In this document: positions 2,304 to 25,982 of the stretch, in pieces | How the letters are laid out: each line of letters opens with the position of its first letter | Numbering within the stretch: position 1 is the stretch's first letter | Assembly: GCA_902613795.1 (NCBI GenBank) | Contig: CACMIP010000001.1 | Location: forward strand, 1-42,086 | Reading direction: 5' to 3' | DNA: 42,086 nucleotides | Source: an uncultured OCS116 cluster bacterium | GTDB lineage: Bacteria > Pseudomonadota > Alphaproteobacteria > Rhizobiales > TMED25 | The notes under the pieces: model-generated | The model's input: only the letters and a program-made list of their open reading frames with translations | What the model was told of the DNA's origin: nothing | Database searches by the model: none | Translations under genes and position numbers: made by a program

Positions 2304-3385
2304 ACTGCCTCACTTTGTAATTCTTGTGTAAGGATTGCAGATTTGAGAGATTCATAATTTGCTTTCTTTCTCCTCAAAGCAATTTTTGCTATGCTAATCT
2401 CAGCAAAGGCGCTATCAAGTTTGGCTACGATGCTTTGCTGCTCTTCTGGTTGGGGAAGAAAAAAATCAAATTCTAAGATAGCATTCATGTTCGCACGGGG
2501 CATCCTAGCCCCTGTGCTTGTGTTTTCGATTTTGTCAGCAACTATTGGAGATAACAGCCAATAAGCAAGAAATTTTCGATTTAAATTTGGAGATGGCTTT
2601 AGGCAAAAAATCTCAGTGCTACACTGCCCTTCAAAGTTTGGAACGAAAACCTTTTTTAAGTATGGACGCAACCTCCCATAAAGTACATGCGTCTTGTCAA
2701 ATTTGAAAGTTGAACTGGTGGATTCTGGAACCTCCAATTCATTGACAATTTGCATCGTCTCTGAAGAAATGTTTTCCATCCCCAAGTAAGGAAGTGAGCT
2801 ACCTTGTGCATTCACTTTTTCATAATTTACCACGTCCTTCAGCTTAACATTGCTCCACATCAACCCATTGTCTTTAAAACTGTTTGAAAGTAACGAAGCG
2901 CTTAGCCACACTACCTCCTCTTCCTTTCCGTTAGCTAACCTAATAGCCTCATCAATTTCAGCAAAGGCGGCATCAAGTTTCGCTACGATGCGTTGCTGCT
3001 CTGCGAGTGCGGGAAAGTGCGGGATTTCAAAATTTTCAATGTCCCCTTTTGAAATAAACGGCTGAGCAGCACCCCTTTTTGGTAATTCAATCGCAGTGAT
3101 GAGATAGTACAAGAATTTACTAAAAACTACATCTGCGTTAGGGGTAAGAGTGATTGTGTTTTTAATCGCTGTGAACCGCTGCTCGGGAAAAAACATTTTC
3201 CCACATTGGGCACCAATAGCTGACAATACGCAAACATCAGCTTCATGTTCATAATGGTTTAGCCTACCGTCAGCTCCAGTAGCTGATACTGCGAGATACA
3301 CACCGTCATCTACATAAGATTTTTTTGTTAACGCTGTGTTGCCCCAATCAACCTTACAAATATCACCCAATGTCGTAGCCATCAC
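2300..3385 (-). CDS. hsdS: Type I restriction enzyme specificity subunit HsdS
   Basis: DNA-recognition subunit that sets the target site for both methylation and cleavage. The 361 residues show the expected duplicated layout: target recognition domain 1 (about 1-125), conserved helix 1 starting AEQQRIVAKLDAAFAEID (about 128-148), domain 2 (about 175-310) and conserved helix 2 starting EEQQSIVAKLDSAFAEI (about 314-330). The near-identical helices form the spacer coiled coil of the family. The first start is GTG at 3385, directly followed by ATG at 3382; the hsdM stop TGA overlaps both, so either start keeps hsdM and hsdS coupled. At 361 residues it is somewhat short for a two-domain HsdS but appears complete. 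The bipartite recognition sequence cannot be predicted by eye. Confidence 0.92.
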   Translation of the reverse strand: MMATTLGDICKVDWGNTALTKKSYVDDGVYLAVSATGADGRLNHYEHEADVCVLSAIGAQCGKMFFPEQRFTAIKNTITLTPNADVVFSKFLYYLITAIELPKRGAAQPFISKGDIENFEIPHFPALAEQQRIVAKLDAAFAEIDEAIRLANGKEEEVVWLSASLLSNSFKDNGLMWSNVKLKDVVNYEKVNAQGSSLPYLGMENISSETMQIVNELEVPESTSSTFKFDKTHVLYGRLRPYLKKVFVPNFEGQCSTEIFCLKPSPNLNRKFLAYWLLSPIVADKIENTSTGARMPRANMNAILEFDFFLPQPEEQQSIVAKLDSAFAEISIAKIALRRKKANYESLKSAILTQELQSEAV

Positions 3386-4836
3386 AGCAACTCCTTAATT
3401 GCCTGCAATGCTTGTGCCGCTTGTGCATCAAGCTCCTCAATCTCTGCAATAATTTCTGCTGGAGTACGGTTATCAACTTCCTCAACACGATTGGGGTTGT
3501 TAACTGTCAAATCCCATGAGTCTGAATTGATGTCAGCAACATCTACTAGCCAACTATTTTCACTCAGCTCCTGTGTTTTTGACATCTCAACAAACTCAGC
3601 CAAATCCCTCTCGTTTAGCGGATTTTTTTTGCCCATGTTCCTACCAACATCCAGCTGGTAATACCAAATCTTGTCCGTTGGTTTACCCTTCTCAAAAAAT
3701 AGGACAACAGTTTTAACACCTGTGCCAATAAAGGCACCACTTGGTAAATCCAGCACTGCGAATAGATTACATTCCTCCATCAACTGCTTACGAAGGGCGA
3801 TGCTGGCGTTGTCTGTGTTGCTTAGGAACGTATTTTTGATAACCACACCACAGCGTCCATCACTTTTTAGAATTTTGATAAAATGTTGCAGGAACAGATA
3901 GGCAGTTTCACTGGTTTTGACGGGGAAGTTCTGCTGTATTTCTGCCCGCTCTTTGCCACCAAAAGGAGGATTGGCAAGTACCACATCAACTCTGTCCTTT
4001 TGCTGAATATCAGTAATATTTTCTGTGAGTGTGTTGCTGTGAATGATATTGGGTGCTTCAACACCATGCAGTATCATGTTCATAATACCAATCACATAGG
4101 CGAGTGATTTTTTCTCTTTGCCAATAAAAGTGTTGTTTTGCAGTTGCTCATAGTCAGCCGCGCTCAATTCACCATGCCCACGCATCCATGCGTATGCCTC
4201 ACAAAGAAAGCCCGCACTGCCTACAGCACCATCGTAAACAGTTTCTCCAATCTGCGGGTTTATGACTTTTACAATGCTTTTGATGAGGGGGCGTGGTGTG
4301 TAGTACTCTCCGCCGTTTCGCCCAGCATTACCCATGTTTTTGATTTTGTCTTCATACAAACTGCTCAGTTCGTGTTTATCCTCATTGCTGAGGAATTGCA
4401 GCTCATCCACCTTGTTGATAACATCACGTAAGGCATAGCCGCTTTGCAGCTTATTGCGGACTTCACCAAATATCTCACCAATTTTATATGTGATGTTGCG
4501 TGGGTTTTCAGCAGTCTGTTTAAAGCTGGCGAGATGTGGGAACAGTTTGAAGTTCACAAAATCCCGTAAGTCATCTCCAGTCATTGCTGAATTGTAATCG
4601 AGTGTTCGGTCAGCTTTTTTAGGAGCTGCCCATTCAAGCCAGCGAAATTCTCCGTCGATAATCCGACTGTATGTTTCACCATTTAGCATTGCTGCAGTTT
4701 CCTTGTCAGACTCAAAATCATCTAAGTACTTAAGGAATAGTATCCAGCTGGTTTGCTCTATGTAATCAAGCTCGCTACTACAACCAGCGTCTTTCCATAA
4801 GGTGTCATCTATTGATTTAAATACTTGATCAAACAT
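3382..4836 (-). CDS. hsdM: Type I restriction enzyme methyltransferase subunit HsdM
   Basis: N6-adenine methyltransferase of the type I complex, using S-adenosylmethionine. With the start at 4836 the protein has 484 residues and begins MFDQVFKSIDDTLWKDAG, the usual HsdM N-terminus. A longer frame opens at 4923, but its 29 extra residues are hydrophobic and not family-like. GEYYTPRPLI lies at about 176-185. The SAM motif I is DGAVGSAGF at about 202-210, with Gly where the classic motif has Pro. The catalytic motif NPPF lies at about 289-292. First gene of hsdM-hsdS-hsdR, overlapping hsdS. The ribosome site is weak (GGAA about eight bases upstream). No convincing promoter was found. Confidence 0.93.
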   Translation of the reverse strand: MFDQVFKSIDDTLWKDAGCSSELDYIEQTSWILFLKYLDDFESDKETAAMLNGETYSRIIDGEFRWLEWAAPKKADRTLDYNSAMTGDDLRDFVNFKLFPHLASFKQTAENPRNITYKIGEIFGEVRNKLQSGYALRDVINKVDELQFLSNEDKHELSSLYEDKIKNMGNAGRNGGEYYTPRPLIKSIVKVINPQIGETVYDGAVGSAGFLCEAYAWMRGHGELSAADYEQLQNNTFIGKEKKSLAYVIGIMNMILHGVEAPNIIHSNTLTENITDIQQKDRVDVVLANPPFGGKERAEIQQNFPVKTSETAYLFLQHFIKILKSDGRCGVVIKNTFLSNTDNASIALRKQLMEECNLFAVLDLPSGAFIGTGVKTVVLFFEKGKPTDKIWYYQLDVGRNMGKKNPLNERDLAEFVEMSKTQELSENSWLVDVADINSDSWDLTVNNPNRVEEVDNRTPAEIIAEIEELDAQAAQALQAIKELL

Positions 4837-11104: not shown

Positions 11105-12019
11105 ATGAAAATACCATGGATCTTTCATAAAGATTACGACATCCCTTTACCAGAAAATCATAGATTTTCATCTTCTAAATTTGGCGACTTATATACTCTT
11201 TTAATTGACTCAGAGTTAGCAAAATCCGCAGAAGTTTTTACTCCAAGTATGGCTAAGGATGGCCAGCTTACAAAAGTGCATACAATGGATTACATTAATA
11301 AGATAAAGAATGGAAATTTATCTAAAAAAGAGGAAAAAATACTGGGCCTACCCTGGTCAGAAACCTTATCAAAGCGCTCATACTTAGCGGTTAATGGGAC
11401 ATATCTTGCTGCAAACTTAGCACTCATTAATGGTATTGCCTGCCACATTGCGGGTGGTACACATCACGCTCATGCAAATTATGGCTCAGGTTTCTGTGTT
11501 TATAATGACTTAGCGTATGCTGCTAAAAATATTATTTCGGATGGGAAATGCAAGAAAGTACTAATTATTGATTGCGACGTTCACCAAGGAGATGGTACTG
11601 CTGAAATTTGCAAAAATGATACAAATATTTTTACCTGCTCTGTCCATGCCTCAAATAATTTTCCAAGTCTAAAGGCAAAAAGTGATTTAGATATTAGCCT
11701 AGATGATAAAATTTCTGATGAAAATTACCTTGAAAAAATTAAATTTGCCCTCGCTACATGCAGTAAAAATATCGAGCCAGATCTGGTATTGTATGATGCT
11801 GGCGTGGACGTCCATAAAAATGATAAATTAGGTCGATTAAACATTAGCGGCAAATGCATACTTGAGAGAGACTTAGAGGTGCTCAATTTTTTTAAGAGAA
11901 AAGACATACCTGTTGCAACTGTCATTGGCGGTGGATATTCAACTGATAATATTGAACTCGCTGAAAGGCATACTCTAATTTTTCATGCAGCTGCCCAAAT
12001 ATTTACTTCCAAAGCATAA
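11105..12019 (+). CDS. Histone-deacetylase-superfamily amidohydrolase
   Basis: 304 residues. Zinc-dependent deacetylase fold with all expected active-site parts: His120-His121 dyad in GGTHHAH, zinc ligands Asp158 and His160 in DCDVHQGDGT, third ligand Asp235 in AGVDVHKNDKLG, and the catalytic Tyr278 in GGGYSTD. Bacterial members deacetylate small amines such as polyamines or lysine side chains. The compact size and THHAH pattern resemble the class IV (HDAC11-like) branch. First gene of a likely operon with the ABM protein (70 bases on) and photolyase (11 bases further). The ribosome site is weak (AGAGA directly before ATG). No clear plus-strand promoter was found in the divergent region. Confidence 0.92.
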   Translation: MKIPWIFHKDYDIPLPENHRFSSSKFGDLYTLLIDSELAKSAEVFTPSMAKDGQLTKVHTMDYINKIKNGNLSKKEEKILGLPWSETLSKRSYLAVNGTYLAANLALINGIACHIAGGTHHAHANYGSGFCVYNDLAYAAKNIISDGKCKKVLIIDCDVHQGDGTAEICKNDTNIFTCSVHASNNFPSLKAKSDLDISLDDKISDENYLEKIKFALATCSKNIEPDLVLYDAGVDVHKNDKLGRLNISGKCILERDLEVLNFFKRKDIPVATVIGGGYSTDNIELAERHTLIFHAAAQIFTSKA

Positions 12020-12403: not shown

Positions 12404-13840
12404 ATGACTGATATAGTTTGGTTTAAAAGAGATCTCAGGGTCAATGATCATGAACCCTTGTATCGGGCTTCTCAAAAAAATAAGATAATACCACTTTATA
12501 TTGTTGAGAGAGACTTTTGGAAGCAACCAGATGTTAGTGATCGACACTATAAGTTTTTAACAGACTCAATCACAGATTTAAATTCTGCATTACATGATTT
12601 AGGGCAAAAATTAATAATAAGAGTTGGCGATGCGGAGCAGATCTTTTCAGAGCTAATAGAGGAGTATGCAGTTGAAACGATTTGGTCCCATGAAGAAACG
12701 TGGAATAATTGGACTTACCAAAGAGATATAAAGTTACGAGCAATGTTCGATAAAAAAAATGTGAAATGGCAAGAAATTCAAGTCAATGGTGTATTTAGAG
12801 GATTAAATGATAGAAAATCTTGGTCTAAAATGTTTTATCAAGAGGTCAATAAGGTGCCTTTTGATAAACCAAACAAGCTAAATAATATAAATATAAAATC
12901 TGAAAAATTACCAAGCGCAGATGATCTAGATATAAAATCGATAGAATGCCCCTACATACAAATAGGCGGTGAAAAAAAAGCACATGATGTGATGCATAGC
13001 TTCATCACATCAAGATCTTATGATTATTCTAAAAATATATCATCTCCATTATACTCGCATGAGTCATGCTCGAGATTATCTACATATCTGGCTTTTGGAA
13101 ATATTTCACTAAAGCAAGTTTTCCATTTCACTAAATGCGCAACAGATAATTTTAAGGCCAATAGAGAACATGTGAATATTATGAATCTTCGTTCCATTAA
13201 CGCCTTCAAAAGTCGGCTTAGATGGAGGTCACACTTCATACAAAAACTTGAAGATCAGCCAAATATCGAAAGTCAAAATCTTCATGAGGCTTACAACAGT
13301 ATAAGAAATGATTCATTTAACGAAGACTTTTATCAGGCATGGAGAGATGGCCAGACAGGTTTTCCCCTTATTGATGCCTGCATGCGGTCATTAATAAAAA
13401 CTGGTTGGATTAATTTTAGAATGAGAGCAATGTTAGTAAGTTTTGCAAGCAATAATTTATGGCTTGATTGGAGAAAATTTGCGCATCATTTATCAAATAT
13501 TTTTACTGATTATGAGCCTGGGATCCACTACTCACAAATACAAATGCAATCGGGAACGACAGGTATTAATACAATTCGTATATATAATCCAATCAAACAA
13601 AGCTACGATCAAGACAAGGATGGTGTTTTTATTAAAAGATGGGTAAAAGAACTTCAGGACTGCCCAATTGACTACATACATGAGCCATGGAAATGTGAAA
13701 CAAAAAAAATTAGGTATGCACCACGAATAATCGATGAGATTGAGACGCGTAAAAAGGCATCGAGTCAGTTGTATTCAATAAAATCTAAAATACGATATTC
13801 TGAAACTACAAGAAAAATACTTAAGAAGCACGTGAGTTAA
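12404..13840 (+). CDS. Cryptochrome/photolyase-family protein, probable deoxyribodipyrimidine photolyase
   Basis: 478 residues. The N-terminal antenna domain (about 1-130) begins DIVWFKRDLRVNDHEPL. The FAD domain shows SHESCSRLSTYLAFGNIS (about 218-235), RLRWRSHF (about 271-278), GQTGFPLIDACMRSL (about 316-330), TGWINFRMRAMLVSF (about 333-347) and IRIYNPIKQSYDQD (about 391-404). These are the flavin-binding elements of enzymes that repair UV-induced pyrimidine dimers with blue light. The GTTGINTIRIYNP stretch differs from the usual GxDAxPYFRIFNP, so this belongs to a less studied branch. Whether it repairs DNA or acts as a light sensor is not decidable here. Last gene of the deacetylase-ABM-photolyase set. 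Confidence 0.93.
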   Translation: MTDIVWFKRDLRVNDHEPLYRASQKNKIIPLYIVERDFWKQPDVSDRHYKFLTDSITDLNSALHDLGQKLIIRVGDAEQIFSELIEEYAVETIWSHEETWNNWTYQRDIKLRAMFDKKNVKWQEIQVNGVFRGLNDRKSWSKMFYQEVNKVPFDKPNKLNNINIKSEKLPSADDLDIKSIECPYIQIGGEKKAHDVMHSFITSRSYDYSKNISSPLYSHESCSRLSTYLAFGNISLKQVFHFTKCATDNFKANREHVNIMNLRSINAFKSRLRWRSHFIQKLEDQPNIESQNLHEAYNSIRNDSFNEDFYQAWRDGQTGFPLIDACMRSLIKTGWINFRMRAMLVSFASNNLWLDWRKFAHHLSNIFTDYEPGIHYSQIQMQSGTTGINTIRIYNPIKQSYDQDKDGVFIKRWVKELQDCPIDYIHEPWKCETKKIRYAPRIIDEIETRKKASSQLYSIKSKIRYSETTRKILKKHVS

Positions 13841-16258: not shown

Positions 16259-16711
16259 ATGTTAACACGGAAGTTTCTAAGTCCAGAAAATGTCTGGCAA
16301 AGGGTCCAAAAAACAGATCAATGTCCAGAAGGTGAACTTTTGTATGTTCCAATAACATTAAACATTGATGAATCTCGTACTTTTATTTACCTCGCAGGTC
16401 AGACGGCGCGACTACCTGATGGATCTGTTGAAAGTGATGATATGCGTGATCAATTAAGGCAGACCTGTGAGAATATTGGGATCTGCCTAAACTATGTTGG
16501 TGCAACATTTGATGATGTAGTAACTTCCAAAACATACGTACTAGATCTACAGGAATATTATGGAGTATCTGACGAAAGATTCAAATATTTCAAGAACAAT
16601 AGGCCCGCTAGTACGCTTTTGCAGATCTCAGGATTAGGTTTTCCTAAATGCAAGATCGAAATTACTGCAGAGGCTATAATCGAGACAAGTAGACTGACGA
16701 TCGATTATTGA
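16259..16711 (+). CDS. RidA-family enamine/imine deaminase
   Basis: 150 residues, cytosolic, one RidA (YjgF/YER057c/UK114) domain. RidA hydrolyses reactive 2-aminoacrylate-type enamines and imines released by PLP enzymes. The catalytic arginine (Arg105 of E. coli-type RidA) is present as Arg115 in NRPASTLLQISGL, and the partner glutamate is Glu134 in KIEITAEA. LAGQTA (about 45-50) matches the SGQ strand. The N-terminus is about 25 residues longer than the classic 128-residue form. A TAGGAG ribosome site precedes the ATG. First gene of the ABC-transporter operon, 61 bases before the binding protein, suggesting that it detoxifies an intermediate from the imported compound. Confidence 0.9.
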   Translation: MLTRKFLSPENVWQRVQKTDQCPEGELLYVPITLNIDESRTFIYLAGQTARLPDGSVESDDMRDQLRQTCENIGICLNYVGATFDDVVTSKTYVLDLQEYYGVSDERFKYFKNNRPASTLLQISGLGFPKCKIEITAEAIIETSRLTIDY

Positions 16712-16736
16712 TTTTTTTACTTTATTAAATTCTGAA

Positions 16737-16755
16737 ATTGGTCTCATTAACCAAT
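16737..16755 (+). repeat. Short inverted repeat before the binding-protein gene
   Basis: ATTGGT (16737-16742) and ACCAAT (16750-16755) are perfect complements with a seven-base loop, directly upstream of the ribosome site GAAAGG of the binding-protein gene. It could stabilise or modulate the mRNA; six base pairs are too few to be sure. Confidence 0.25.
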
Positions 16756-16772
16756 GAAAGGAAATTAATCTA

Positions 16773-17906
16773 ATGTATAAGATTACAAAAATATTAGCGG
16801 TTCCATCCTTATTGGTCTTCAGCGTGTTATTATTAGGTATCACAACTACACCAAGTCTTGCAAAAGCTCCTGGCGCATGGATTATTGAGGTAGATGAAGA
16901 AAGATGTGCCGACCCAAGGGTTGCTCAAGCCAATAGAGAGGGCGAGTTACTTGTTGTGGCAAGTATTTACGAGACTCCTGAAACCACAAAAGCTCATAGC
17001 GAAGGATTTAAAAAGTATTGGTGCCTAGATGATGATTTTGAAGTAAAGTTTGAGATCAGAAATACACCAGGTACTATTGCAAGACTTGAAGCTGAAGCAA
17101 GTGAGGGAGTTCCCATATCAGGTGATGTAACAACGATGCCTGCAATAACATGGTTTATGGATGCTGTAGATAGAGGGCTTATTATGGCTTATAATTCGCC
17201 AAATTATGCAGAAATGAAACTTCCAGAAAAAATTGGACTGAATAATGTACCATATTGGACATCTGATATGTACATGTTTGTGCCAATGTGGAACAGTAAT
17301 GCATTGCCAGACCTTGAGATTAACAGCTGGATGGATCTTCTTGACCCGCAATTAAAGGGTAAGATGAGTATACTTGATGGTTCACTGCAACAATCTGTTG
17401 CTCTTGTTTATGATTACATGAAGAAGAGTGGTAAACTTCCTGATGATTATTGGGAAAGACTTGCAGATCAGGATGTACTAATATCATCCACCTCATCCTT
17501 ATCTATCGATATGATGATGTCTGGTGAACGTCCAGTATCAATACTAGGCGTATCAGCTGATGCTTGTGTGCTTCATAGTCAAGGAGCAACATTCATAAAA
17601 ACAGCCGCACCTGTAGAGGGCGTAATGTTGCAAGAACAAGCTTCTGCTGCATTTGCAAGCGCCCCTCACCCTAATGCTGCCCAACTATGGTTAGATTTCT
17701 TGAGAAGTCATGAAGGCCAAACCATATTTGAGTATCATGAAGGTCGTGTGCCTGGTAGAGCTGGTGTTCCAAGTAGTTGTGCAGTTACACCGAACAATGA
17801 TGATTTGATGGACTCAGCCTTTGCTCCTGATTATGAGGCAATGGTAAAGGACGCAGATCTTGTTGCTAATGCACAGGCAGAGTTTGGAGCATTATTTGTA
17901 AATTAA
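16773..17906 (+). CDS. ABC transporter periplasmic binding protein, AfuA/FbpA class
   Basis: 377 residues with a signal peptide (hydrophobic about 8-28, likely cut after SLA-K-A near 31). The mature part follows the type II binding fold of the Fe3+/thiamine/phosphonate/polyamine group: GELLVVASIYE at the start, then NTPGTIARLEAEAS, PNYAEMKLPE, WMDLLDPQLKGKMSI, QSVALVYDYM and FLRSHEGQTIFEYHEGRVPGRAG near the end. FbpA-type ferric binders carry an adjacent Tyr-Tyr pair for iron; I see no YY in this protein, which argues for an organic or other anionic ligand. Four cysteines in the mature chain. The ATPase and permease follow after a strong hairpin. Confidence 0.88.
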   Translation: MYKITKILAVPSLLVFSVLLLGITTTPSLAKAPGAWIIEVDEERCADPRVAQANREGELLVVASIYETPETTKAHSEGFKKYWCLDDDFEVKFEIRNTPGTIARLEAEASEGVPISGDVTTMPAITWFMDAVDRGLIMAYNSPNYAEMKLPEKIGLNNVPYWTSDMYMFVPMWNSNALPDLEINSWMDLLDPQLKGKMSILDGSLQQSVALVYDYMKKSGKLPDDYWERLADQDVLISSTSSLSIDMMMSGERPVSILGVSADACVLHSQGATFIKTAAPVEGVMLQEQASAAFASAPHPNAAQLWLDFLRSHEGQTIFEYHEGRVPGRAGVPSSCAVTPNNDDLMDSAFAPDYEAMVKDADLVANAQAEFGALFVN

Positions 17907-17933
17907 TAATTCATATCAACTCTGAAATAAATT

Positions 17934-17977
17934 ATACATTGCTTTGCATTTTATCATGCGAAGCAGTGTATTTTTTT
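17934..17977 (+). terminator. Strong intra-operon hairpin with T-tract (attenuator)
   Basis: A 16-base-pair stem (17934-17949 with 17956-17971, two G-U pairs, loop TTTATC) is followed by a run of seven T. It lies 28 bases after the binding-protein stop and before the ATPase. As a partial terminator it would let the binding protein be made in excess over the membrane components, as is common in binding-protein operons; it also protects the upstream mRNA 3' end. Confidence 0.8.
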
Positions 17978-18011
17978 AACAAAGTATAACTTTAATGGGA
18001 TTTGCTAAGGT

Positions 18012-19097
18012 ATGAGCGCATTTTTAAAAGTGGAAAATCTATCAAAAAGATATGGCAACCATCAAGCAATAGATAATGTTAGCTTTGAGATCGAAGAAAA
18101 AAAGCTTTTTGTGCTATTAGGTCCAAGTGGTTGTGGAAAAACAACAACATTGAGATGTATAGGCGGATTAGAAAAACCTGATACTGGTATCATAAGCATT
18201 AAAAATGAAACTATATCTAATAATGAAGATCAAATTTTCGTAGCTGCTGAAAAGCGTGGAATGGGCATGGTGGCTCAGTCATATGCAATTTGGCCACATA
18301 TGAGTGTATTTGAGAATATTGCGTTCCCGCTTCGAATGTCAAAGTTTGATAAGAATTTGTTAGCTAATCGAGTAGAAGAAGCGCTCGATATGGTTCAGTT
18401 AAAAGGTCTCGGAACAAGAAATGCAACAGATTTATCAGGGGGCCAGCAACAACGTGTAGCGCTTGCACGTGCAATTGTGGGCCGACCCAAATTATTACTA
18501 TTCGATGAGCCACTTAGTAACCTCGACGCAAAACTTAGAGAGCAAATGCGATATTTACTGAAAGAAATACAGACAGAAATTGGTATTACGGCTGTGTATG
18601 TTACACATGATCAATCGGAAGCAATGGGTCTTGGTGATGAACTCATAGTAATGAACAACGGCAAAATAGAGCAAAGCGATCAAGCTAGGAGCTTGTATAA
18701 TAACCCTAAAACAAAGTTTGTTGGTGAATTTATAGGAACAGCAAACATGATAGAGGGTCACATAATTCAGAGAGAGTCCAATTCTTGTAAAATAACTTTA
18801 AAAAATAAAAATAGTGAACAAATAATAAAAGCCCGACTATCTCGCCATACAGACTCAGAACAAGGCGTACTCCTGTTCAGGCCAGAGTGGATATCCATTC
18901 AAAAAGGTATAAAAGACAAACAAGAAAATTCCATTGATGGCGTTGTCAGAACATATCAATACTTAGGAGATAGATCTGAGTTAATAATAGAAACAGAATT
19001 TGCAGATATAAAGGCCTCTGTAACAGATGATGAGGAATATATCGTTGGAGATAAGGTCGTAATAAAAATAAATGAAAATAAAGCAATAGTCTTTTGA
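18012..19097 (+). CDS. ABC transporter ATP-binding protein (FbpC/PotA type)
   Basis: 361 residues. Energises import by the permease that follows. Walker A GPSGCGKT (37-44), Q-loop QSYAIWPHMSVFENIAFPLRM (about 89-109), signature LSGGQQQR (141-148), Walker B LLLFDEP (161-167) and the switch His in VTHDQSEAM. The C-terminal 130 residues form a TOBE-type domain (GEFIGTANMIEG, then a RPEW element), as in importers for iron, polyamines, sugars or 2-aminoethylphosphonate. Conserved sites are intact. The permease starts 10 bases after the stop. The ribosome site is weak (TAAGG). Confidence 0.95.
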   Translation: MSAFLKVENLSKRYGNHQAIDNVSFEIEEKKLFVLLGPSGCGKTTTLRCIGGLEKPDTGIISIKNETISNNEDQIFVAAEKRGMGMVAQSYAIWPHMSVFENIAFPLRMSKFDKNLLANRVEEALDMVQLKGLGTRNATDLSGGQQQRVALARAIVGRPKLLLFDEPLSNLDAKLREQMRYLLKEIQTEIGITAVYVTHDQSEAMGLGDELIVMNNGKIEQSDQARSLYNNPKTKFVGEFIGTANMIEGHIIQRESNSCKITLKNKNSEQIIKARLSRHTDSEQGVLLFRPEWISIQKGIKDKQENSIDGVVRTYQYLGDRSELIIETEFADIKASVTDDEEYIVGDKVVIKINENKAIVF

Positions 19098-19107
19098 ATG
19101 TAAATAC

Positions 19108-20802
19108 ATGACATTGTCTAATCAAAACACCTACATAAATAATATTATTCGAAATATATCAATCGAGAAATCTCTTTTTTGGGTAACCGCAGCACTGATG
19201 TTAGTTGCTATCTTGTATCCAGCTTCCATGGCAATAAGGGCTGCATTTTTTGAGAATGATATATTTACACTCGCAGGATTTGAGAGGATTCTTCAACTAG
19301 ACACAATAGTATCTGACATTTGGAACACACTCATATTTTCAGCAGGTTCAATGTTTGGGGCAACTGTAATAGGTGTTTCCTTGGCATGGGTAAATGCAAG
19401 AACAGATGTACCAGGTGTTAGAGCAATCGAGGTTTTCTGTGTTATTCCGTTTTTTTTGTCCGCTTTTGTCGGAGCCATTGCTTGGCGACTACTTTTTGTA
19501 CCTAATGCAGGTATGATTTCTATGTTTCTTACCAAATACGGTTTTCCAGAATTTTTACTCCCCGATATTTACTCACTAGGGTCAATGGTTTTTATCCAGT
19601 CGGTTTTCTATTCTCCATTTATGTATCTCTACGCAGTGGCGTCATTCAGACAGATGGATCCGACACTTGAAGAGATAGCAAGGATACATGGCGCCGGTAA
19701 CTGGAATACTCTTCGAAAAATTACTCTTTCCGTAAATGGGCCAGCATTATTATCCGGAATGATCCTTGTATTTGTTATGTCCGTTGGAACACTTGAAGTG
19801 CCAATGGCGCTTGGCTCTGCTGGAGGTAACTACGTTTTATCAACAAGAATTTGGGCACTCATGAATAATATGCCCCAGGATGTAACTGCTGCATCAGCGC
19901 TTGGTATGATAGCAATTCTTATTGCAGCGATTGGCATCATTATACAAAGAAGATTGCTAGGTAATAGAAAATTTACAACAGTTACAGGAAAGGGTTACAA
20001 ATCGAAGAAAATATCGCTTGGGCGTTGGAAGTGGGTCGTTTTTACGCTTGCTATAACGTATATCATATTTGCCGTCATTATGCCGATTGTAACATTGATA
20101 CTCGTAGCACTACAAAAGTTCTGGACAGGCTCATTTAGTATGCAATTCTTTACTTGGGCTAACTTTACAACCGTTCTCTTTGAATATGATGTTACCGCTA
20201 GAGCAATAAAAAATAGTTTATTCGCTTGCTCTGTTGCTGCCACAATTTCTGTAATTTTTGCATTAATTCTATCCCAAATTCGATCACGTAATGCCGAAGC
20301 ATTTATGGGGATGTTAGTTTTATTGCCAATTGTAATACCAGGTGCTGTTTTCGGGATGATGGTGCTGTTTGCATTTGTAAAAACACCTATTTATAATACA
20401 ATTTTCATTATAATCTTTGCATATGTTATCGCCTATTTTTATCTAGCGTATAGGACAATATATTCTGTCCGTCTATCTATTCATCCTGAGCTTGAGCAAT
20501 CAGCACGAATACATGGAGCAAGTTGGTTTCAGTCAACTCGGAGGATACTGACTCCACTATTAAAGCCAGGGATTGTATCTGCATGGCTCATGTCGTTTAT
20601 ACTATTTATCAGGGAGTTTTCTTCTGTGATGTTCTTATACCGACATGGGACAGAAGTAATGCCAGTTGTTTTTTTCATGTTAATGGAGAGGCATTCAGCA
20701 AGATTAGCAGCATTCATGGTAATCCAGACAGCAATATTGTTGTTAATCATGATTATCTATCAACGCTTCACTAGCAAAAATGCTACCGGAGCAGCTTTTT
20801 AA
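19108..20802 (+). CDS. ABC transporter permease, two fused permease domains (FbpB type)
   Basis: 564 residues with about twelve membrane spans: two BPD_transp_1 domains in one chain, so a single molecule can form the whole channel. Each half has its EAA coupling loop: LEEIARIHGAGNWNTLRKI (about 190-208) and LEQSARIHGASWFQSTRRI (about 463-481). Single-chain double permeases are typical of the Fe3+/2-aminoethylphosphonate-like class, agreeing with the binding protein and ATPase. The gene is seven bases upstream of the frame that leads into the triple-RidA gene. Confidence 0.95.
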   Translation: MTLSNQNTYINNIIRNISIEKSLFWVTAALMLVAILYPASMAIRAAFFENDIFTLAGFERILQLDTIVSDIWNTLIFSAGSMFGATVIGVSLAWVNARTDVPGVRAIEVFCVIPFFLSAFVGAIAWRLLFVPNAGMISMFLTKYGFPEFLLPDIYSLGSMVFIQSVFYSPFMYLYAVASFRQMDPTLEEIARIHGAGNWNTLRKITLSVNGPALLSGMILVFVMSVGTLEVPMALGSAGGNYVLSTRIWALMNNMPQDVTAASALGMIAILIAAIGIIIQRRLLGNRKFTTVTGKGYKSKKISLGRWKWVVFTLAITYIIFAVIMPIVTLILVALQKFWTGSFSMQFFTWANFTTVLFEYDVTARAIKNSLFACSVAATISVIFALILSQIRSRNAEAFMGMLVLLPIVIPGAVFGMMVLFAFVKTPIYNTIFIIIFAYVIAYFYLAYRTIYSVRLSIHPELEQSARIHGASWFQSTRRILTPLLKPGIVSAWLMSFILFIREFSSVMFLYRHGTEVMPVVFFMLMERHSARLAAFMVIQTAILLLIMIIYQRFTSKNATGAAF

Positions 20803-20814
20803 ACAATAAGTGAA

Positions 20815-20820
20815 AGGGGA
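20815..20820 (+). promoter_or_regulatory. Ribosome binding site fixing the triple-RidA start
   Basis: AGGGGA seven bases before the ATG at 20828. It lies inside the longer frame that could open with GTG at 20810, so it favours ATG 20828. Confidence 0.7.
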
Positions 20821-20827
20821 ATTGGTT

Positions 20828-22111
20828 ATGACAACGAAACTCAAATACCTGAAAGAAGATAATAATATTTATCCTGTAGCAGTAAAAGCAGGCGATCTAA
20901 TTTTTATTAGTGGACAAATGGCTTATGAAAGCGGAGTTGGGGTTCCAGATAATTTAAAATTGCACGAGGGTATGCCCTATCATGGATCGCTTATTGAGAA
21001 ACAACTAAAATTTATTTACAATAAGCTTGATACTTCCCTGGATGAGGTTGACACTTCCCTAAAACACATTTTGAAAATTAACTCCTTTCATATGCATGGC
21101 GAAGACGTTGATATGGCATTGAGAGAAAGAAGAAATTGGTTTAGCAAAGATAATCCCCCTCCTAGCACTTTAGTTTTTACTCCAGAATTACCTGTTCAAG
21201 AGGCAAGGGTATCATTAGATATGATAAATATTTCAAAATCAGCTAAAATGCCAATTGAGTCGGTAAAGCTGACTAAATCACCTGATATTGCTCAGGTAAA
21301 ATCGATTGGTTGGGCAGTCTTTTCCCAAGTTTTAAAGGGTGCTGGATTTATTTTTACCCGTGGAACAACAGCACATAACCAAGATGGCCCACTCAAGGAG
21401 ACACTTCCAAATTATCCATTTCCTTATGATAATAATATTGTCAAATATCAGCTTCGTTATGAGATTGAGAGAATGAAAGATCTACTAGAAGATGCTGGCG
21501 CGTCTTTGGAGCATGTTGTGAGAGCAGAGTTACATATGACCAATATGGAAGATATTGCAATAGTTGATGAATTATGGGCGGAATACTTCCCCGTTGACCC
21601 CCCAGCGCGTGTTATAATCCCTGTGCCTTTAGTAGTGCTTCCAATGCGAATAGAGTCAGAGTTTATTGCTGTTGACCCAAGCGGACCATACAAAAAAGAG
21701 ATTATAAATTGTAAGGGTGTACCAGAACCAATAAGTCCTGAGTCTACCGCTGTAAAAGCTGGGCCATTCGTATTCCTATCTGGGCAGCTTGCTACAGACT
21801 TTAAGCATGGTCTAGCACCGGAAGCTACCGTGAACCCAAGTTTTCCATATCACAGTAATCAAGCACGCCTTGAAGCAGAATATATAATAAGCAAGGTATC
21901 TAGAATTTGTGAGATTGCCGGCACATCAATTGAAAATTTAGTTAGAAGACGCGTTCATTTTGTTGACATGGTAGACATCCCGTTAACAGAAGATCTGTGG
22001 GTGAATAGATTAGGAGATAAAATGCCTGCAAGCACACTCTTTAAAACTTCCGGGCCACTACCAATCCCTGCCTGTAAAATCCAGTATGATCTTACTGCAT
22101 TTATTAAATAA
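20828..22111 (+). CDS. Protein of three tandem RidA-like domains
   Basis: 427 residues, cytosolic. Three consecutive RidA folds: about 12-136 (VKAGDLIFISGQMAY to EARVSLDMI), 155-283 (VLKGAGFIFTRGTT to MRIESEFIAV) and 300-426 (VKAGPFVFLSGQLAT to CKIQYDLTAF). RidA is normally one 130-residue domain working as a trimer; a triple repeat could form the trimer from one chain. In each domain the RPAS position carrying the catalytic arginine is altered: PPPST (110-114), PPARV (258-262) and MPAST (399-403). Imine hydrolysis by the known mechanism is therefore unlikely. Last gene of the ABC operon, before a clear terminator. It might bind the imported ligand or a metabolite, or be a deaminase with another mechanism. 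Confidence 0.85.
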   Translation: MTTKLKYLKEDNNIYPVAVKAGDLIFISGQMAYESGVGVPDNLKLHEGMPYHGSLIEKQLKFIYNKLDTSLDEVDTSLKHILKINSFHMHGEDVDMALRERRNWFSKDNPPPSTLVFTPELPVQEARVSLDMINISKSAKMPIESVKLTKSPDIAQVKSIGWAVFSQVLKGAGFIFTRGTTAHNQDGPLKETLPNYPFPYDNNIVKYQLRYEIERMKDLLEDAGASLEHVVRAELHMTNMEDIAIVDELWAEYFPVDPPARVIIPVPLVVLPMRIESEFIAVDPSGPYKKEIINCKGVPEPISPESTAVKAGPFVFLSGQLATDFKHGLAPEATVNPSFPYHSNQARLEAEYIISKVSRICEIAGTSIENLVRRRVHFVDMVDIPLTEDLWVNRLGDKMPASTLFKTSGPLPIPACKIQYDLTAFIK

Positions 22112-22224
22112 TTTTTCCTCTTGATATCATCTACTATGATATTGTATTCCGGTAAAATGAGTGATAAAAGATAATCGAGTTTTTAAATAGAAAATTGGTA
22201 TTTATTATTTAAACTACTCCGAAG

Positions 22225-22250
22225 AAACCAGCCTTTAGGCTGGTTTTTTT
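22225..22250 (+). terminator. Rho-independent terminator of the RidA-ABC operon
   Basis: Stem AAACCAGCC / GGCTGGTTT with a TTTA loop, followed by T residues: a textbook intrinsic terminator 113 bases after the triple-RidA stop. It separates the operon from the DMT transporter gene. Confidence 0.92.
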
Positions 22251-22308
22251 GTTTACTGAGTGTATTTTTATTGCTCTAATCAGTATATATTTATAAAAAT
22301 GGTTTAAC

Positions 22309-23229
22309 ATGTTAGGCAGTCTTCTAGCGCTTCTATCTGCAATGTCATTTGCGTTTAATGACGTAGCTGTACGACGCGGGATATTATATAATTCTGTTTA
22401 TAAGTCAATTGCAGTGACAGTTCCAATTGGGGTACCATTGTTCATAGCCGCAATGATTGTATTTGATTGCCACGAAGCGTTAAATAGCCTTACAATTCGA
22501 TCTATTTCTTTCTTTGGTATAGCAGGCATCATTCATTTTATCTTTGGGAGATACTGTAACTACAAGTCTATTGAGTACCTAGGGACAACTCTTGCAGGTC
22601 CCGTAATGCAAATTTCACTATTGATTTCAGTATTTTTTGCATTCTTTATCTTGAATGAAATATTTACCTATCTGCATTTCCTTGGAATTATATTAATCCT
22701 CCTTGGTCCTATGATTATACTAGCTGGTAGCAGTAATAATGTAACAAAATCAGGTATTAAAATTGACTATACTCGTGGCTTTATGTGGGGAATTCTATGT
22801 TCATTTTCTTATGGCACAAGTCCTCTTTTAATAAAGCTAGGATCAAATGGTGGTGGAATAAAAGATAATATTGTAGGCGGATTTGTCTCTTATTTCTCAG
22901 CATCAATGTTATTATTTATAATATTTCTAATTGTTAAAATACCCCTTAAAAAAATATATAAATTGGAGCCATCAGGAAGAAAATGGTTTCTCATAACAGG
23001 GTTTATGGCTTTCATATCTCAACTGCTAAGATACATGGCGCTCGCGTTGCTTGCTATGTCCATTGTGGAGCCAATTCAGAGATCGTCTGCTGCTTTTCGA
23101 GTATTATTTGGATATTTAATAAACAAAGAGCATGAGATCATAAATTCAAGAGTTTTAGCCGGTATCTTAATATCATTGATGGGTGTATACGTTCTCATAT
23201 CCCAATTGGGTAGTTTTGTTATGCCTTAG
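22309..23229 (+). CDS. EamA-domain (DMT superfamily) transporter
   Basis: 306 residues with about ten membrane spans in two EamA repeats. Repeat 1 starts SLLALLSAMSFAFNDVAVRRG; repeat 2 starts RGFMWGILCSFSYGTSPLLIK. Features such as LGTTLAGPVMQ at the end of span 4 and VEPIQRSSAAFRVLFGYLIN in repeat 2 fit drug/metabolite transporters, which usually export amino acids or metabolites. A terminator stands before it, so it is transcribed apart from the ABC operon; no good ribosome site is visible. Its stop overlaps that of the converging lyase-like gene by four bases. Confidence 0.88.
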   Translation: MLGSLLALLSAMSFAFNDVAVRRGILYNSVYKSIAVTVPIGVPLFIAAMIVFDCHEALNSLTIRSISFFGIAGIIHFIFGRYCNYKSIEYLGTTLAGPVMQISLLISVFFAFFILNEIFTYLHFLGIILILLGPMIILAGSSNNVTKSGIKIDYTRGFMWGILCSFSYGTSPLLIKLGSNGGGIKDNIVGGFVSYFSASMLLFIIFLIVKIPLKKIYKLEPSGRKWFLITGFMAFISQLLRYMALALLAMSIVEPIQRSSAAFRVLFGYLINKEHEIINSRVLAGILISLMGVYVLISQLGSFVMP

Positions 23230-24116
23230 TCGACCGGCATTAATTTAGGATTAATATTGAAATCTACTTCTGTAATTGAATTACCTCGTCTAATTTCATC
23301 ATAATATACAATTTGTGTTGGTAGTTTAGCTTCTTGACCTATAGTTTCTTTCCAATTTTTATAGCGACTCACAAAGCTTCTATATATTCCATACTTAAAA
23401 TACGTAGACTCAGGTGCAAAATTAATTGGCGAGTTTGCTATTTCATGTTTTTTATTACCATTTACCCACACTTGCATAAGTTCATCTTCATAGTTCAAGC
23501 AAAATGATATGTCATTCCACTTCTCAACCATATCATTTATATCCAATAAGTAATAATTAATCCCTTCATCTATCACATTTGTTGGAGATCCAGTTAGGGA
23601 ATGCCATTTGAAATAGAATTTTCCTCTCTTGGCTGACATCTGAATAAGCGGTGGTAATGATACATACCCGCCAGCTTTTCCAGATGGCCCACCCTTTTGA
23701 TGGATTTGACCCAAGTCTGTATTTGTTGGATGGACATCAATAAAATCTTTATCCAGTTTTATACTATAAGCAAAGCATTGATTACCACTTGGGTCTTGTC
23801 TGGGCCTGGATGAAAATTCGACTCGCTCTCGATCATTCTTGCAATCATTCCAAGTATCATCACCAAAACAATCACCGTCTCGTAATTCAAATCTTTGATA
23901 GAATTTTCCTCTCCTAGCAGCCATTTCATCTTCTATATATACATAATTATAGCTATTTTGACTCATATAGTTGGTATGAGTTTTGAAACCAGAATACTCA
24001 GGCACACTTAATGCCAGTTTGCCTTTATCGTCTGTATATATTTTTGATTTAGCATCATTTGGTAAAATGAGTACGATAAGTAAGCACAATAGTACTGATG
24101 TGCGTATGAAGGTCAT
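23226..24116 (-). CDS. Secreted polysaccharide-lyase-like protein (heparin lyase I-type fold)
   Basis: 296 residues with a signal peptide (hydrophobic about 7-19, cut near residue 24). The body has the pattern of the polysaccharide lyase family PF14099: ERVEFSSRP (about 96-104), QIHQKGG (about 137-143), MQVWVNGNKKHE for a beta-sandwich strand, FKYGIYRSF (about 244-252), and a final IVYYDEIRRG, a strand common in this jelly-roll fold. Relatives cleave uronic-acid polysaccharides by beta-elimination; catalytic residues cannot be confirmed by eye. Paired cysteines in CFGDDTWNDC suggest a disulfide. Alone on its strand, converging on the DMT transporter gene. Confidence 0.75.
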   Translation of the reverse strand: MTFIRTSVLLCLLIVLILPNDAKSKIYTDDKGKLALSVPEYSGFKTHTNYMSQNSYNYVYIEDEMAARRGKFYQRFELRDGDCFGDDTWNDCKNDRERVEFSSRPRQDPSGNQCFAYSIKLDKDFIDVHPTNTDLGQIHQKGGPSGKAGGYVSLPPLIQMSAKRGKFYFKWHSLTGSPTNVIDEGINYYLLDINDMVEKWNDISFCLNYEDELMQVWVNGNKKHEIANSPINFAPESTYFKYGIYRSFVSRYKNWKETIGQEAKLPTQIVYYDEIRRGNSITEVDFNINPKLMPVD

Positions 24117-24983: not shown

Positions 24984-25982
24984 ATGAATATAATATCTCA
25001 AATTGGGAATACGCCCCTCATATACTTAAAAGAGGTGTCAGAACTCACATCTTGCCATATTTACGGAAAGGCTGAATTTTTGAATCCGGGTCTATCAGTA
25101 AAAGATAGAGCTGCACTAAGCATCATTGAAAACGCCGAAAAACGAGGTGATCTAAAAAAAGGTGGTACAATAGTTGAGGGTACTGCTGGTAATACCGGAA
25201 TAGGAATAGCGCTTGTTGCTAATGCTAAAGGGTATAATGTCAAAATTATAATTCCAGAAACACAAAGCCAAGAAAAATTTGACACGTTAATTGCACTTGG
25301 AGTTGAGCTCATAAAAGTTCCAGCTGTACCATTTTCAGATCCTAATAACTATCAACATGTTGCAAGGAGAATTGCTGATGAGGAGATGAAAACGAATCCA
25401 AATGGTGCAATTTTTGCAGATCAATGGAACAACCTAGATAATATGATAGCACACTACAGTACTACTGGTCCTGAGATCCTAGCGCAAACAAATAAACAAA
25501 TAGACGGTTTTATTTGTTCAGTTGGAACTGGGGGTACACTCTCAGGTGTTTCAAAATTCTTAAGGGAAAACAAACCTGATATTCAGATTGGTCTTGCCGA
25601 TCCAAAAGGAGCAGCAATGTATAATTTTTTTCAGAATAATAGAGTTGAACCATCCGCAGGTAATTCTATTTCAGAGGGTATCGGTCTTGGAAGAGTAACT
25701 CCCATAATCGAAGAAATTGAAAAAGTGGATTATTGTTATTCAATTGAGGACATCGATGCCTTACATTATATCTATAATCTTGTGAAGAATGAGGGTGTTA
25801 TTCTCGGTGGATCAAGTGCAATAAATATCGCTGGGGCAGTTAATCTGGCGAAGGATATCGGTAAGGGAAAAACAATAGTTACGATATTATGTGACCATGG
25901 AAGCCGATATCAAAGCAAAATATACAATCAGAAATTTCTTAAAGAGAAGAAGTTGCCTGTACCAAATTGGCTAAAAAATTAA
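24984..25982 (+). CDS. Cysteine synthase family PLP enzyme (CysK-like)
   Basis: 332 residues, fold type II PLP enzyme. Lys40 in LSVKDRAA is the Schiff-base lysine; EGTAGNTGIG (65-74) is the substrate loop, differing from the classic EPTSGNTG; SVGTGGTLSGV (about 179-189) binds the cofactor phosphate. Usual role: O-acetylserine plus sulfide to cysteine. The GTAGNTG variant and the C-terminal tail (about residues 300-332) occur in a longer branch that also includes Cds1-type cysteine desulfhydrases, so the reverse or a related reaction is possible. Its TAA overlaps the stop of convergent lolD by four bases. A ribosome site is not obvious. Confidence 0.88.
   Translation: MNIISQIGNTPLIYLKEVSELTSCHIYGKAEFLNPGLSVKDRAALSIIENAEKRGDLKKGGTIVEGTAGNTGIGIALVANAKGYNVKIIIPETQSQEKFDTLIALGVELIKVPAVPFSDPNNYQHVARRIADEEMKTNPNGAIFADQWNNLDNMIAHYSTTGPEILAQTNKQIDGFICSVGTGGTLSGVSKFLRENKPDIQIGLADPKGAAMYNFFQNNRVEPSAGNSISEGIGLGRVTPIIEEIEKVDYCYSIEDIDALHYIYNLVKNEGVILGGSSAINIAGAVNLAKDIGKGKTIVTILCDHGSRYQSKIYNQKFLKEKKLPVPNWLKN

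Follow-up and report, generated by a model that had tools for sequence, protein, structure and literature searches.

A fused three-domain Rid protein with one RidA-type arginine, encoded next to ABC importer genes in an OCS116 cluster bacterium

A 42,086-nt contig of an uncultured OCS116 cluster bacterium (CACMIP010000001.1, assembly GCA_902613795.1, positions 1 to 42,086 of the forward strand; the whole stretch is referred to as the window), from a source genome of 1.32 Mb, carried a gene encoding three Rid domains in one chain. This locus raises the question of how many of the three domains retain the catalytic arginine, and what such a protein might do beside importer genes. The gene, designated 3x-Rid, ended a run in the order single-domain Rid (starting at nt 16259), substrate-binding protein (SBP), ATPase, fused permease, and 3x-Rid. 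The features were as follows, with pocket positions named after the residues of E. coli TdcF.

16259-16711, plus strand: single-domain Rid, first in the run (PF01042, E 1.5e-17; S118 at the Arg105 position, E134 retained)
16773-17906, plus strand: ABC substrate-binding protein (SBP_bac_11/8/6; weak PhnS2 match)
18012-19097, plus strand: ABC ATPase with a TOBE domain (PotA/PhnT-like, under curated cut-offs)
19108-20802, plus strand: fused ABC permease (two BPD_transp_1 stretches; PhnU2 match under cut-off)
20828-22111, plus strand: 3x-Rid, 427 aa, three Rid domains (ORF and translation, three PF01042 stretches, AlphaFold)
20828-21247, plus strand: Rid domain 1, aa 1-140 (profile alignment: S113 at the Arg105 and S129 at the Glu120 position; Y15 and G29 retained)
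21248-21685, plus strand: Rid domain 2, aa 141-286 (R261 at the Arg105 and E276 at the Glu120 position; G179 retained)
21608-21610, plus strand: codon of R261, the equivalent of TdcF/RidA Arg105 (invariant in 14/14 aligned triple proteins)
21686-22108, plus strand: Rid domain 3, aa 287-427 (S402 at the Arg105, Q419 at the Glu120 and E305 at the Tyr17 position)
22309-23229, plus strand: EamA/DMT-type transporter, 197 nt downstream of 3x-Rid (operon membership possible)

The 3x-Rid ORF, from an ATG at nt 20828 to a stop ending at nt 22111, began 25 bases past the stop codon of the permease gene, and a purine-rich AAAGGGG preceded its ATG by 8 nt. PF01042 matched three stretches of the product (E 4.6e-30; 104.5 bits versus a cut-off of 27.3) and was the sole Pfam family at E <= 0.001; domain 3 by itself scored 23.4 bits, under that cut-off, and NCBIfam TIGR00004 scored 92.4 bits, under its cut-off of 106.25. 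A scan of genome contigs gave 21 related loci, 15 of which matched most of the query, including L077, whose frame was interrupted. P0001 and 13 of these 15 loci (L063 and L077 left out) formed a 14-row alignment (A5), on which AlphaFold predicted a confident three-domain chain (mean pLDDT 87.0, pTM 0.90). Solved Rid chains superposed on each third of the model (residues 1-138, 143-284 and 290-427; Z about 17-19 among the best 50 rows of VIA-align), domain 1 being matched by two of these best 50 rows. A match to designed toroids that phmmer gave for domain 1 was taken as a repeat artefact. Both the PF01042 profile and the fold place the protein in the Rid superfamily. The preliminary description, made from the sequence alone, was thus borne out in its view of one 427-aa chain with three RidA-like domains that are unlike one another, their pairwise identities being 20%, 24% and 27%. 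Superposition of a predicted structure on Rid, which it had proposed as a check, gave the Rid fold three times, while the question of the arginine was decided by sequence alignment.

In TdcF, the inter-subunit pocket is formed by Tyr17, Gly31, Asn56, Asn88, Arg105, Pro114, and Glu120; Arg105 binds the ligand carboxylate and Glu120 extends across the interface (PMC1884159). In the RidA pocket, the arginine and the glutamate come from different subunits, the glutamate being the neighbour's (PMC4960622). Rid proteins bearing the arginine are active deaminases, and replacement of this residue by alanine nearly abolishes the activity of plant and S. enterica RidA, while replacement of Glu120 in the S. 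enterica protein is reported to have little effect (PMC4433059); the R104A variant of RutC, a Rid protein of a catabolic operon, is inactive (PMC8113886). In a profile alignment of 71 domains, including TdcF, RidA and RutC from the E. coli K-12 record, the residues at the seven TdcF positions, in the above order, were Y15, G29, K66, L98, S113, V123, and S129 in domain 1, F165, G179, R215, D247, R261, V270, and E276 in domain 2, and E305, G319, K356, E388, S402, I413, and Q419 in domain 3. An arginine at the Arg105 position was therefore present in domain 2 only, with serine in domains 1 (S113) and 3 (S402). In phmmer alignments to solved Rid proteins, R261 fell on the arginine of PH0854 and 1xrg, and S402 of domain 3 on that of PH0854; R261 was invariant in all 14 rows of A5.

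The claim that no domain carries the catalytic arginine thus held for domains 1 and 3 and failed for domain 2. PPARV of domain 2 had been read as a loss because the first letter of the RPAS motif was compared, which lies two residues upstream of the catalytic Rid position. The single-domain Rid at nt 16259 illustrates the difference, as it reads RPAS, yet has serine (S118) at the catalytic position. An active-site arginine in any domain had been named beforehand as the observation that would speak against the claim, and R261, by sequence alignment, is such a residue; a protein with three sites devoid of arginine is now hardly conceivable, R261 being both aligned with Arg105 and invariant in A5. 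With R261 in domain 2, the main argument for the non-catalytic role proposed at the same time also fell. R261 is not the only Rid arginine of the genome, as another Rid gene (G000:C6:58434-58817) reads HTRTT at this position (placed by eye).

Copies of the window gene with 93-99% identity were found in records of the OCS116 cluster or Rhodobiaceae (L063-L066), in line with a marine alphaproteobacterium. All five aligned OCS116 copies had the pattern Ser-Arg-Ser in domains 1 to 3; in the OCS116 proteins, the Glu120 position was occupied by Ser in domain 1 and by Gln in domain 3. The pattern Ser/Gln-Arg-Ser/Thr was observed in L067, L071, and L074. Among 22 triple chains classified, several of them closely related and two L078 domains being matched only in part, nine had arginine in all three domains (L068, L069, L070, L072, L073, L075, L076, L032, and L078), six in domain 2 only (the window protein, L065, L066, L067, L071, and L074B, three of them from OCS116), and seven in none (L061, L074A, L021, L022, L096, and two in L097). 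The domains within a chain shared 64-85% identity in L068-L070, L072, L073, L075, and L076, versus 20-36% in the class with arginine in domain 2 only.

A tree of tandem Rid domains, proposed earlier as a check, was built with L065, L078, g76_L096, and TTT_L021 left out. In it, the domain 3s of the asymmetric set (the window protein, L066, L067, L071, L074B, and L074A) grouped with a support of 98/95. Its domain 1s and its domain 2s were each separated from all other rows by a single, weakly supported branch (60/88 and 70/88, respectively). A clade uniting the domain 1s of the symmetric and asymmetric triples, a group named after the tree was seen, was rejected (p-AU 0.0002). Long branches were those of the TTT-type, L074A, and single-Rid rows, including the single Rid at nt 16259-16711. 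The asymmetric set is taken to descend from a single old fusion, separate from the symmetric 3x-RidA, its domains having diverged according to their position in the chain; L074A, which has no arginine, looks like a duplicate of this fusion. A separate origin of each triple group is not claimed, since the domains of L072, and partly those of L073, clustered within their own protein, so that a common ancestry could have been obscured by conversion between domains.

Triples of this kind look uncommon. At E <= 1e-30, six of 384 other genomes sampled from the class were matched, one by a single-domain frame and three by proteins of the arginine-less L096/L097 type, and none of 397 other genomes sampled from the phylum; with mostly four candidates scored per genome in both samples, these counts are lower bounds. 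In a plasmid search, three records, all from Vibrio, covered 80% of the query, and the one that was read was a triple with arginine in all three domains; of two further plasmid searches, one gave no match at 1e-20 and in the other none of 20 matching records covered 80%. The Vibrio triple (L032:7707-9113, Vibrio sp. THAF191d plasmid), with domains sharing 52-55% identity, grouped apart from the alphaproteobacterial triples and had no gene annotation in the table consulted. The arginine-less group comprised L096:8001-9257 and two tandem copies in L097 (5304-6545 and 6583-7857), with a molybdopterin hydroxylase gene about 1.4 kb from the triple Rid in L096. The interrupted frame of the downstream triple in L077 (8001-9251) may reflect a sequencing error or a pseudogene.

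Loss of pocket residues in domains 1 and 3 might indicate a decaying fusion with two domains as dead weight. In the comparison of the window gene with L065 and L066 (dS 0.8-1.4 by domain), dN/dS was lowest in domain 2 (0.01-0.02), followed by domain 1 (0.03-0.04) and domain 3 (0.07-0.08). All three domains are under strong purifying selection, and domains 1 and 3 are not decaying. Decay was rejected on these values (0.03-0.08 in domains 1 and 3) and is, with the Ser-Arg-Ser pattern kept in five OCS116 copies and its Ser/Gln-Arg-Ser/Thr counterpart in L067, L071 and L074, very improbable.

Another explanation is that the protein is a ligand-binding or regulatory pseudo-trimer without catalysis, in which the Rid fold binds the imported compound or a product thereof and R261 merely holds a carboxylate. 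Two of the three sites lack the arginine, seven of the 22 triple chains have none at all, and the arginine-less L074A lies in the same run as the L074 triple with arginine in domain 2. Furthermore, different subunits contribute the arginine and the glutamate to each Rid pocket (PMC4960622), so that E276, which is inside domain 2 itself, should not meet R261, whereas the partner domain would present S129 or Q419. Against this stand the invariance of R261 (14/14) and the strongest constraint being on domain 2, although a binding site would look alike. A binding role is thus possible, with perhaps one chance in several of being right.

The pattern of residue loss suggests which domains may pair. 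In L067, L071, and L074B, the three more distant chains with arginine in domain 2 only, domain 1 retained the Tyr/Phe, Gly, and Glu of the face opposite to the arginine, while domain 3 had Glu at the Tyr17 position, Gln/Ser/Asn at the Gly31 position, and Ala/Ser at the Glu120 position. Since the Glu face is kept in domain 1 and lost in domain 3, only a site combining the arginine of domain 2 with the glutamate of domain 1 would be complete in these proteins, a pattern that suggests domain 1 as the partner of R261. The own glutamate of domain 2 was retained in five of the six chains with arginine in domain 2 only (the exception being L067), and domain 2 of L071 and L074B retained Tyr, Gly, and Glu. 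As domain 2 keeps its own Glu face though this would face a pocket without arginine, conservation of a Glu face alone does not mark the active pocket.

An internal trimer, regarded as possible in the preliminary description, is plausible from the model (pTM 0.90) and from its whole-chain matches. The top three were chorismatase entries (PDB 5a3k, 5ag3, and 4bps; Z 26.4, 26.2, and 25.9 in VIA-align, in agreement with Foldseek), superposed over 284-287 residues (model residues 21/22-425) at 2.9-3.1 A with 13-14% identity. Chorismatase is a single chain whose overall shape, as compared with the model, resembles the arrangement of three Rid domains. This likeness, together with the constraint on all three domains, might point to new chemistry in which one of the altered interfaces now acts on the imported compound as another type of lyase or hydrolase, much as chorismatases have a reaction of their own in a similar overall fold. 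However, identity is low, a profile search of solved structures had no chorismatase among the 60 sequences listed at E <= 1, chorismatases catalyse a different reaction, and fold likeness is silent on the reaction and shows no function; new chemistry is therefore considered improbable.

A link of the protein to an imported substrate, as proposed earlier, is suggested by its position in the run, by co-occurrence, and by importer genes next to part of its relatives. In the genus, SBP and 3x-Rid were present as neighbouring genes in the same five of 12 genomes, several of the 12 being incomplete, and an ORF of the length of the EamA gene came after 3x-Rid in L023-L026. No substrate is proposed from the transporter family, the NCBIfam PhnS2, PhnT2, and PhnU2 matches being under cut-off, and Pfam and NCBIfam profiles identified no catabolic gene within nt 16259-23229. 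A terminator-like hairpin of 16 pairs followed by a T run was located between the SBP and ATPase genes (nt 17934-17971); three terminator-like sites were found in the region versus 4.5 expected in shuffles. Intergenic hairpins of this kind can hold SBP mRNA above that of downstream genes. Near the run were genes for a histone-deacetylase-like protein (11105-12019), a DNA photolyase (12404-13840), a polysaccharide-lyase-like protein (23226-24116), and, beyond a minus-strand gene, a cysteine synthase (24984-25982; CysK-like, PRK10717 over cut-off).

Importers of different families accompanied the related triples. By Pfam, L071 carried a set similar to TauABC/SsuABC (NMT1 SBP, ABC ATPase, and BPD_transp_1), the genes of which were matched in L074 and L077; L068 carried BMP-type ABC genes, matched in L075; L069 and L076 carried Liv-type ABC genes, matched in L070 and L073; and L022 carried TctA and TctC, matched in L021. 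L074 (1413-2774) and L077 (1448-2752) each carried a further triple Rid 5' of the TauABC-like genes, so that two triples bracket the importer; this additional triple had no arginine in any domain in L074 and, by eye only, likewise in L077, where an M20 deacylase gene follows it. Genes for an NtaA-family FMN monooxygenase were present a few kb away in L069 (1577-2911) and L076 (1635-2987), both over cut-off, and in L070 (within 1756-4368), as compared with a distant match in one of 20 control loci (L109). Known members of this monooxygenase class cleave C-N or C-S bonds. The queries used found no importer permease or SBP in six of 18 triple loci (L067, L072, L061, L032, L096, and L097).

An ABC ATPase lay within 2 kb at nine of 18 triple-Rid loci versus none of 20 single-Rid loci (Fisher p 0.0003), within 1 kb at five versus none, and within 3 or 6 kb at 10 versus five (Fisher p 0.055), each query being dropped on its own locus. 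A permease or SBP was found within 1.5 kb at 11 of 18 versus one of 20 loci, and in stretches of up to 6 kb on each side at 12 versus four, both counts being biased since the queries came from the triple loci. The triple and control loci are convenience samples containing related members (L071/L074/L077, L068/L075, L069/L070/L076, L021/L022, and L096/L097; two controls share one genome), and some contigs end early. Because the loci are non-independent and four different distances, including 2 kb, were compared, the association with ABC ATPases is a lead, not proof, the excess being marginal at 3-6 kb. The occurrence of triple Rids beside importers from different families suggests a role of some Rid proteins in nutrient uptake pathways.

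The best explanation, held with middling confidence, is a covalent pseudo-trimer with one arginine pocket acting as an imine/enamine hydrolase dedicated to an imported compound. The 3x-Rid protein would reside in the cytoplasm as a pseudo-trimer of covalently fused Rid domains in which a single arginine pocket is canonical. In this pocket, R261 would hold the substrate carboxylate with D247 at the Asn88 position, and the arginine face of domain 2 would lie against the counterpart face of an adjacent domain, probably that of domain 1. The pocket would hydrolyse an imine, an enamine, or a similar carboxylate-bearing intermediate, which may arise in the breakdown of the compound brought in by the ABC importer of the same run, a role comparable to that of RutC in the Rut pathway; the other two interfaces, having lost the arginine, may be kept as structure or as altered pockets. 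The equivalence of R261 with Arg105, purifying selection, the pTM of 0.90, co-occurrence with the importer, and the excess of ATPases within 2 kb argue for this reading, as do the symmetric loci L069, L070, and L076, which hold both a Liv-type importer and an NtaA-like monooxygenase. Against it, Arg and Glu would not be combined in any pocket of the OCS116 proteins, so the domain 2/1 site would not be fully canonical; arginine-less triples (L074A, L021, and L022) also adjoin importers, and importer linkage thus does not require deaminase activity; and for L067, with arginine in domain 2 only, no importer was found within 6 kb. To our knowledge, no activity has been described for any triple Rid of this set.

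Proteins with three tandem RidA domains, presumed to be covalently linked trimer units, have been named 3x-RidA (Niehaus et al. 2015; e.g. EF_0115; PMC4433059), and the triple architecture and its reading as a covalent trimer were therefore already in print. The window protein likewise has three tandem Rid domains fused in one chain. The symmetric triples analysed here have domains 64-85% identical with three arginines, whereas the window protein has domains 20-27% identical with one. The passages on 3x-RidA in that article make no mention of dissimilarity between the domains, of how many arginines a chain carries, or of neighbouring importer genes, and neither "transporter" nor "permease" is present in its main text (PMC4433059). 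The window protein resembles E. coli RidA, TdcF, and RutC in the fold of each domain and in the Arg105 equivalent of domain 2, and RutC also as a Rid of a catabolic gene set; these proteins are single-domain, in contrast to one chain with at most one arginine site and with Ser/Gln at the Glu120 position in domains 1/3. In the Rid4 and Rid7 subfamilies, Trp occupies the arginine position and in Rid5 and Rid6 the residues vary, the functions of the arginine-less Rid4-Rid7 being termed completely unknown (PMC4433059); domains 1 and 3 resemble these in lacking the arginine, but have Ser there, and domain 2 keeps it. The literature titles and opening lines of abstracts listed, which cover few subscription journals, contained no description of an asymmetric one-arginine triple or of a link between Rid and importers. 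Thus, the novelty may lie in the asymmetric subgroup, with Ser/Gln, Arg, and Ser/Thr in domains 1 to 3, as opposed to symmetric 3x-RidA.

In a wider and quite speculative picture, which is doubtful as a whole, these proteins would form an ancient asymmetric branch of fused Rid with three unlike pockets, one bearing the RidA arginine, and would perform the first cytoplasmic processing step for nutrients taken up by dedicated importers. Released by the fusion, the other two pockets would have become available for another reaction, for sensing the substrate, or for taking it over from the transporter. Triples would have arisen on more than one occasion and would repeatedly have been drawn into the neighbourhood of importers that are not related to each other. 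Rid enzymes usually occur as symmetric homotrimers, in which a single mutation alters every active site at once. A chain that is fused by nature and has one arginine site allows each interface to be examined on its own, to learn which pocket residues matter and what the pockets without arginine do, and the 3x-Rid gene provides a handle on the substrate of the OCS116 ABC importer.
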